Source: Cyanobacteria bacterium M_surface_10_m1_298 (GTDB lineage: Bacteria > Cyanobacteriota > Cyanobacteriia > PCC-6307 > Cyanobiaceae). From it: a stretch of 64,000 nt of DNA. The notes under the pieces are model-generated. The model had not been told where the DNA came from. It ran no database searches and worked only from the letters and a program-made list of their open reading frames with translations. The DNA lies in the NCBI GenBank assembly GCA_016882485.1, contig VGPT01000001.1:28022-92021 (forward strand). Direction: 5' to 3'. The translations under genes were made by a program, and so were the position numbers. This document shows, piece after piece, positions 55,115-57,739 of the stretch (the first letter of the stretch is position 1; each line of letters opens with the position of its first letter).

Positions 55115-56191
55115 TCAGCCAATCGAAGGGGCCGTGAGGGCCACGGGAATCGACTGGGTTGCCGCCAGGTCGAGGGGGAAGTTGTGAGCATTGCGCTCGT
55201 GCATCACTTCCATACCCAGGTTGGCGCGGTTCAGCACGTCGGCCCAGGTGTTCAGCACACGACCCTGGGAATCCAGGATCGACTGGTTGAAGTTGAAGCC
55301 GTTCAGGTTGAACGCCATGGTGCTCACGCCCATGGAGGTGAACCAGATGCCGACCACGGGCCAGGCACCGAGGAAGAAGTGCAGGCTGCGGCTGTTGTTG
55401 AAGCTGGCGTATTGGAAGATCAGGCGACCGAAGTAACCGTGGGCAGCCACGATGTTGTAGGTCTCTTCCTCCTGGCCGAACTTGTAGCCGTAGTTCTGGC
55501 TTTCGGTTTCGGTGGTTTCGCGCACCAGGGAGCTGGTCACCAGCGAACCGTGCATGGCGGAGAACAGCGAACCACCGAAGACGCCAGCCACACCCAGCAT
55601 GTGGAAGGGGTGCATCAGGATGTTGTGCTCAGCCTGGAACACCAACATGAAGTTGAAGGTGCCGCTGATCCCCAGGGGCATGCCGTCAGAAAAGGAGCCC
55701 TGACCGAAGGGGTAGATCAGGAAGACCGCGAAGGCTGCCGACAACGGAGCGCTGTAAGCAACGCAGATCCAGGGGCGCATGCCCAGGCGGTAGGAGAGCT
55801 CCCACTGCCGCCCCATGTAGCAGGAAATGCCCAGCAGGAAGTGGAACACCACCAACTGATAGGGGCCTCCGTTGTAGAGCCACTCATCGAGGCTGGCGGC
55901 TTCCCAGATGGGGTAGAAGTGCAGACCGATGGCGTTGCTGCTGGGGATCACAGCGCCGGAAATGATGTTGTTGCCGTAGATGAATGAACCGGCAACAGGC
56001 TCACGGATGCCGTCGATGTCGACGGGGGGAGCCGCAATGAAGGCAACGATGAAGCAGATGGTGGCCGCCAGCAGGCAGGGAATCATCAGCACACCGAACC
56101 AACCCACATAAATGCGGTTATCGGTGCTGGTGACCCACTCACAGAATTGTGACCAGGAGCTGGAGCGGCCGCTGCGAAGAGCAGTGGTCAT
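55115..56191 (-). CDS. psbA: Photosystem II D1 protein, Gln130 form
   Basis: Reaction-centre core subunit that binds P680, pheophytin, QB and the Mn4CaO5 cluster. The 358-aa protein is complete. TyrZ is in [14 protein letters not shown]; Asp170 and Glu189/His190 context ([15 protein letters not shown]) and the C-terminal processing site after DLA|ATQSIP are present. In conventional numbering (one residue longer at the N-terminus) position 130 is Gln (YMGRQWEL), the mark of the low-light D1:1 isoform rather than D1:2 (Glu). Only one psbA lies in the window. It has its own terminator and an unusual upstream array. Confidence 0.98.
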
Positions 56192-56226: not shown

Positions 56227-56239
56227 GCCACGTCGTGGC
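56227..56239. promoter_or_regulatory. 13-bp near-perfect palindrome in the psbA promoter or 5' UTR
   Basis: GCCACGTCGTGGC is symmetric around its central base. It lies 36-48 bases before the psbA ATG. With a TAGTCT -10 (56246-56251, minus strand) transcription would begin at its edge and the RNA would start with a GCCAC/GTGGC hairpin; with a TTGTCG/TACTGAT promoter it would sit in the spacer as an operator. Confidence 0.45.
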
Positions 56240-56309
56240 CCGACAAGACTATGGATCCTGTGAAAACTTTCTTGGGAGCAAAAATTAAATTCGCATTGCG
56301 ATCACTTTG

Positions 56310-56339
56310 TTCATGAAGAGTTCATGAACGCTTCATGAA
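56310..56339. promoter_or_regulatory. Three TTCATGAA palindromes at 11-bp period upstream of psbA
   Basis: TTCATGAA occurs at 56310-56317, 56321-56328 and 56332-56339, each start exactly 11 bases apart. Each unit is itself a perfect 8-bp palindrome. The array is 119-148 bases upstream of the psbA start. The geometry, 8-bp units with 3-bp spacers, resembles arrays bound by PhoB/OmpR-type response regulators on one DNA face. Confidence 0.65.
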
Positions 56340-56341
56340 GA

Positions 56342-57739
56342 TCACGCCTGCAAGGGACTTTGAACCTGAAGCCAATCGCGGGCGTTCTGCACAAAGGCGC
56401 TCCAGTCGAGTCGCTCCTCCTCGGCCGCGCGCGCCACCAGCAATGGAGCCTGACGCTGCAGCAGCGACTCCAAATCCTGCTCGGGCACGCCGGCGGCCAG
56501 GGCCATGTAGTCGGCCATAGCGCGACCCACCACACGAGTGAGGTAAGCGGCACTCAACGCCTGAAGAGCGCCTCCCACCAGCCAGGTGGCGCCATGCAGC
56601 TTGACCAGAGAGGCAAGGGCCTGACTGCTCCACTCCACCACCCCCAAGGTGAGGGCCGCCTTGCCCAGCTCAGACGCCGCAGCCTGCAGCTGATCAAGCG
56701 ACCAGGAACACTCCCAGAGCTGGGCCATCTCCTGGAGCATCAGCCCATTGGCCGCTGCCAGCACCAGCAGATCGAGGCTGGGCAGCGGAGCCACCACCAC
56801 CCCAGCCGCCACGGTCCACTGCGTTCGCAGCAGGAGCTTCTGCCAGTGCTCACGGCGGAGTCGCTCCAGCTCAACCTGCCAGCAACCGTGCATCTCCTCG
56901 AAGCAGCGCTGCGTGTTGCGCTCGCTGGCCTGGGCACCAAGCTGCGCAAGGGTTGTGACCACCGGCGCCAGATCAGAGCCCAGTTGCTGCGGAGCGAAGG
57001 GGCTCCAGGGCAGGCAATGGTTGCGCAGATGAGCGGGCAGCTGCTGCCGCAGTTGCTCCAGAGCAAGGTTGCACGCACCCTGCAGTGGCCGCTCCACCAG
57101 CACCCGCAGCGGTTGTTGCTGCGGAAGCGCTTCAAGCCAGCGCAGATCAACCGCCTTCAGGGGCAGCTCCAGGCGATAGAGCACCAGGTCGCAATGCCGA
57201 AAGGCATCGGGCCACTGCCACTGGTCTGGGCTCAGGGGCAGGGGGTGGCTGCGATGCACCCGAAGCGGTCGGAGAGAGGCGCAGTGCTGCAACAACAGCT
57301 CCTGGAGGGATTCGCTCCAGGGCTCCGTGCCGACCAAAGCCAGATTGAGGTGGGGATCGCTCTGCTGCCGCGTCAACTCGGCCAACTGCTCTCGCCGCCT
57401 CTGCTGGCCATCGGCCCATCGCTCTGGTGGGAGCTCGAGGCTGCTTTGCAAGCGCTCAAACGAGGCCAGCACCTGCTCGCAGCGGGCAATCCAACCGGCC
57501 GTGGTCGTTGGCTTTAGCGGAGTTGCAGGCTGGCGACGCCGGCCCAGCAACAGCAAACCGGCGCCGGCCGCCGACAGGCTGACCAGCGAAGAGAGCGGAC
57601 CGTGCACGTTCTCAATCAGCAGCCAGCCGCCACCGAGAGCGGCCAACCAGGGCCACTGACGCAGAAGCGTTGACCTCACCACGACTGAGACGGCCGGCCC
57701 GCCAGGGGGCTTCCACTGCTCGGCTGCCTCAGGTCGCAT
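56342..57739 (-). CDS. DUF697 (YcjF-like) membrane protein
   Basis: A 465-aa protein. After two N-terminal hydrophobic segments (WPWLAALGGGWLLI, SLSAAGAGLLLLG) comes a soluble region of about 270 residues with an inactive-looking GTPase-like arrangement (LNLALVGTEPWSESLQELLL, in place of a P-loop GxxxxGKS), then a DUF697-type C-terminal membrane domain (VVAPLPSLDLLVLAAANGLMLQEMAQLWE ... GGALQALSAAYLTRVVGRAMADY). DUF697 proteins often accompany or include dynamin-like or Era-like GTPases. ATG 57739 is chosen over the track's 58111, which runs antisense into the CDF gene. Its stop touches the psbA upstream array. Confidence 0.8.
   Translation of the reverse strand: MRPEAAEQWKPPGGPAVSVVVRSTLLRQWPWLAALGGGWLLIENVHGPLSSLVSLSAAGAGLLLLGRRRQPATPLKPTTTAGWIARCEQVLASFERLQSSLELPPERWADGQQRRREQLAELTRQQSDPHLNLALVGTEPWSESLQELLLQHCASLRPLRVHRSHPLPLSPDQWQWPDAFRHCDLVLYRLELPLKAVDLRWLEALPQQQPLRVLVERPLQGACNLALEQLRQQLPAHLRNHCLPWSPFAPQQLGSDLAPVVTTLAQLGAQASERNTQRCFEEMHGCWQVELERLRREHWQKLLLRTQWTVAAGVVVAPLPSLDLLVLAAANGLMLQEMAQLWECSWSLDQLQAAASELGKAALTLGVVEWSSQALASLVKLHGATWLVGGALQALSAAYLTRVVGRAMADYMALAAGVPEQDLESLLQRQAPLLVARAAEEERLDWSAFVQNARDWLQVQSPLQA

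Follow-up and report, generated by a model that had tools for sequence, protein, structure and literature searches.

Upstream of the psbA1 gene of Cyanobacteria bacterium M_surface_10_m1_298, three identical copies of the 8-bp palindrome TTCATGAA follow one another at steps of about one helical turn. The question raised by this locus is whether these units form a control element of psbA1 and, if so, of what kind. We addressed it in the window, that is, the whole 64,000-nucleotide stretch of DNA that was analysed, and in the corresponding regions of related genomes. As judged from these comparisons, it is almost certain that the three units genuinely serve to control the gene for the low-light D1 isoform.

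Layout of the array in the window

The array was found between psbA and the stop codon of a DUF697 gene (Table 1), and the starts given for its units in the first-pass annotation (56310, 56321 and 56332) proved exact on re-checking. In total, the window contained five copies of TTCATGAA against 0.57 expected; the two copies outside the array, at 2433 and 31223, were both single. Across the whole genome, a second TTCATGAA-N3-TTCATGAA pair was absent even when up to 2 mismatches were allowed. The distance from the array to TAGTCT was exactly 58 bp, and a -35 hexamer was not found in this gap. Additionally, the predicted psbA1 leader contained an inverted repeat, GCCACG-T-CGTGGC (56227-56239), and relatives carried similar repeats at this place, e.g. 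GTGCCACATCTGTGGCAC.

Table 1. Coordinates of the array and of the neighbouring features in the window
Feature	Position	Strand	Remarks
Unit 1, farthest from psbA, TTCATGAA	56332..56339	-	predicted about -93 to -100
Unit 2, TTCATGAA	56321..56328	-	
Unit 3, nearest psbA, TTCATGAA	56310..56317	-	predicted about -71 to -78
Gap between array and -10, 58 bp	56252..56309	-	between genera, length constant, sequence not (34% identity)
-10-like hexamer TAGTCT	56246..56251	-	relatives have TANNNT at the matching place
psbA1, D1 protein of Q130 (D1:1) type, 358 aa, PF00124	55115..56191	-	ATG at 56191
DUF697 gene (PF05128), conserved upstream neighbour of psbA1	56342..57739	-	stop codon 2 bp from unit 1

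Occurrence among relatives and on the D1 isoform genes

The TTCATGAA-N3/4-TTCATGAA pair was present in 51 of 400 genomes of the family, while the reversed-pattern control was present in none of the 400. Nearly all located matches lay 115-155 bp upstream of psbA or adjoined DUF697 at a contig end, and those near psbA occurred in either contig orientation; three located matches (L020, L024 and L025) had neither psbA nor DUF697 as a neighbour. Occurrence upstream of psbA in close relatives had been set beforehand as a refutation test of the first-pass annotation, and the array was present there. The triplet was also not scattered at random genome positions. When GTDB was searched for all three units, 22 stretches were returned, among which those near psbA belonged to Synechococcus or Vulcanococcus-type records. 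Triples away from psbA came from Methanosarcina, Kastovskya, Anoxybacillus and others, and several of them were plain 11- or 12-mer tandem repeats; viral contigs yielded one triple.

The array-bearing relatives included freshwater and marine Synechococcus, and the pattern conserved on their psbA1 copies was TTCATGAA-N3-TTCATGAA-N3/4-TTCATGAA. Most relatives showed steps of 11 and 12 bp towards psbA, and the 11+11 form was the minority form. The spacing of exactly 11 bp in the first-pass annotation thus holds for this genome and most of genus g57 and gives way to 11+12 in most relatives; as a 12-bp step from unit 2 to unit 3 occurs commonly, strict 11-bp phasing is no rule. Many related genera possess a D1:1 gene without the array. 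On a tree of DUF697, array-bearing genomes were scattered, so that six changes were needed, at least four of which were forced by well-supported branches. This scattered occurrence suggests an old element that was lost several times, with repeated gain as a possible alternative.

Cyanobacterial D1 proteins with Q130 are of the D1:1 type, and those with E130 are of the D1:2 type. The three-unit pattern was scored in 100 psbA upstream regions and in the window, and the array was found on 26 of 53 Q130 copies and on 1 of 48 E130 copies (raw Fisher p 3.5e-8, which ignores kinship among the genomes). The arrays scored 20-24, and the best of 2020 shuffles reached 17 out of 24. Every sampled psbA1 copy carried the array in genera g1 (8 copies), g5 (7), g57 (7) and g58 (4), as did one of the three sampled in a fifth genus, g71. 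In the 19 genomes in which both isoforms were sampled, the array was on the D1:1 copy only and the D1:2 copies were always below the threshold. The lone E130 carrier, G028, is the sole psbA copy found in its assembly and has DUF697 upstream; we therefore regard it as a psbA1 locus. The array is accordingly specific to one isoform gene. In marine Synechococcus, a single gene encodes D1:1 and several encode D1:2; expression of the D1.1 gene of WH7803 peaks at the light-dark transition and is repressed at noon, and the D1.2 genes behave in the opposite manner (PMC3441193).

Other repeated motifs were observed at psbA promoters. Several D1:2 promoters (L274, L281, L276, L279 and others, in g5 and g57) contained a degenerate pair at 11-bp spacing, e.g. 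TTCACAAT-N3-TTCATGAA. The distance from this pair to the -10 was exactly 28 bp, so that it lies nearer than the psbA1 array by about three helical turns; possibly, it is a site of the same factor in another position. Upstream of psbA1 in an array-less genome (L211, genus g46), a 13-bp repeat occurred four times (CAGTGCACNANCG, with one copy reading CAGCGCAC...), and an array-less genus (g67, L243) had the 15-bp repeats TTTACTTAACGGGTC there.

Fixed distance to the promoter and alternative readings

The distance from the array end to TANNNT was exactly 58 bp in 22 of 27 regions from five genera and 59 bp in one further region (g71); the remaining four, all from g57, had a non-canonical TCATCT at the matching offset. 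The 58-bp distance also held in further species. By contrast, the distance to the psbA start codon varied from 93 to 162 bp, and that from the DUF697 stop codon to the array from -7 to +82 bp. Between genera, identity was 90% in the units, 34% in the 58-bp gap, 42% in the spacers and 32% in the 40 bp upstream. In g1, g5, g57 and g58, all sampled psbA1 copies were retained, so filtering does not account for the high identity of the units in these genera. Since the units are conserved and their distance is fixed but the gap sequence is not, selection holds the unit sequence and the distance rather than what lies between. Within g1, a block in the gap, TTAATTTTTGCT (56278-56292 in the window), was strongly conserved in most species and absent from other genera. 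The regulatory element of psbA suggested in the first-pass annotation is thus borne out by its conservation in relatives, and it can be narrowed to the D1:1 gene and to a position locked 58 bp from the -10.

Our preferred reading is that the array is a putative transcription-factor operator at about -71 to -101, probably that of a class-I-type activator of psbA1. A sequence-specific factor would occupy all three units next to each other, approximately on the same face of the helix, and would contact RNA polymerase from this upstream position. It would support D1:1 synthesis in low light and would be released or inactivated in high light. Protein binding, a positive sign and a response to light are inferred here from sequence. 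The constant distance to the -10 and the failure to find a -35 hexamer favour an activator; an upstream-bound repressor or a role in DNA architecture would give the same traces. That the array is instead a repressor operator or silencer shutting psbA1 off in high light seems unlikely to us, even though the D1.1 gene of WH7803 is repressed at noon (PMC3441193) and location alone leaves the sign of regulation undecided. In the RpaB system, steric repression needs overlap with -38 to +23 (PMC13421787), and activation accounts better than repression of this kind for a site at -71 to -101 that is fixed at 58 bp and has no -35 hexamer alongside it.

An RNA hairpin, in which pairing of the units would terminate the DUF697 transcript or stabilise its 3' end, was also considered. 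The identical palindromes are able to pair, a fold of -18.3 kcal/mol (z -2.7) was obtained for the window strand, and the array begins just past, or over, the DUF697 stop codon. However, the GC-rich stem followed by a T-run that defines an intrinsic terminator was not present, there being no T-run and no terminator call; the fold of one relative was no better than its own shuffles, substitutions disrupted the pairing with hardly any compensatory change (14-19 broken cells versus 0-1 double changes), and a search of the array against Rfam gave no match. Each array-less region checked also had DUF697 ahead of psbA1. Because the array keeps its distance to the -10 and not to the psbA start or the DUF697 stop, it is an element of the psbA1 promoter rather than a DUF697 terminator. 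We consequently rejected the hairpin, given the absent terminator, the pair-breaking substitutions and the negative Rfam search, and rate it as very improbable. The role at the DUF697 3' end proposed in the first-pass annotation falls as well, because DUF697 lies upstream of psbA1 also where there is no array and the stop-to-array distance varies. A recent, functionless tandem duplication of an 11-mer has a negligible chance of being correct: such repeats account for several triples outside the group, whose spacers are equal or nearly so, but the spacers of this array are unlike one another and change between genera (42% identity), while its units remain 90% identical in five genera and lie in every case at this one promoter, and this conservation refutes it.

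DUF697 was upstream of psbA1 in 20 of 20 further regions, mostly from array-less genomes. This direct neighbourhood was seen in every genus examined and has long been conserved without an obvious reason.

Comparison with known systems and candidate factors

We compared the array with regulatory sites of known architecture. Its tandem units, about one helical turn apart (11 and 11/12 bp) and upstream of a promoter, agree with the general layout of OmpR/PhoB sites, and an OmpR-type factor would plausibly suit palindromic units at such steps, although the 12-bp step of most relatives departs from textbook PhoB geometry. The RpaB site HLR1 is KTTACAWW-N2-KTTACAWW, and an upstream HLR1 lets RpaB activate the low-light psbA1 of PCC 7942 and PCC 6803 (PMC13421787). 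HLR1 shares tandem 8-bp units with the array and has an OmpR-family regulator, and RpaB may be viewed as the closest analogue of the proposed factor. The differences are that HLR1 has two units at 10-bp spacing between -45 and -66, whereas the array has three at 11/12 bp between -71 and -101, with TTCATGAA units and N3/N4 spacers that do not follow the HLR1 sequence. HLR1 half-sites on the sense strand were found at 26 of 48 E130 (D1:2) copies and at 3 of 53 Q130 copies. The cyanobacterial Pho box, bound by SphR, consists of three tandem CTTAACCT with 3-bp linkers (PMC1906773); the window has the geometry 8-3-8-3-8 and most relatives 8-3-8-4-8. TTCATGAA is unrelated to the CTTAACCT consensus, and the Pho box controls phosphate genes, whereas the array is on psbA1. 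The E. coli PhoB box is likewise built of 8-bp direct repeats with a 3-bp linker (PMC1906773), but it has another sequence and lies 10 bp from the -10 instead of 58 bp. In sequence, TTCATGAA fits neither CTTAACCT of the Pho box nor the KTTACAWW consensus of HLR1, as the first-pass annotation had stated. A dedicated factor upstream of psbA has a precedent in the LysR-type CmpR, which acts on the psbA enhancers of S. elongatus at the high-light genes psbAII/III and is not known to act at the D1:1 gene; the LysR-type layout is T-N11-A.

The binder can only be guessed at; our guess is a response regulator of the OmpR/PhoB family, for example RpaA, RpaB or the paralogue of these two. With up to 2 mismatches, a second conserved intergenic target was not found in 16 genomes, and most of the matches inspected overlapped long open frames. 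At psbD, only G005 (L313) has TTCGTGTA-N4-TTCATGAA, just before the start codon and in the leader. A single conserved target would be unusual for a global regulator, which counts against our preferred reading. G134, which has a perfect array, encodes only 6 PF00486 proteins, including an RpaB-like regulator and its conserved paralogue, both near-universal among the genomes compared. No OmpR-family regulator tracking the presence or absence of the array was identified among orthologue calls that were in part incomplete.

In the literature searched, which left most subscription journals outside its scope, TTCATGAA was not mentioned in connection with cyanobacteria, and within the same scope nothing on psbA upstream elements or a mapped psbA1 start matched the array. 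As far as we found, cis-control of the low-light D1 isoform is apparently undescribed so far. It is possible, if doubtful, that the array serves as an essentially single-gene operator for switching between D1:1 and D1:2 across marine and freshwater picocyanobacteria, and that the protein using it is a regulator not yet described or a known one that binds in an undescribed way. The exchange of D1 isoforms is a main way in which marine Synechococcus copes with light. The target is exactly 31 bp long, its promoter phase is fixed, and relatives that naturally lack the array can serve for comparison; what switches D1:1 on and off thereby becomes directly testable by experiment.
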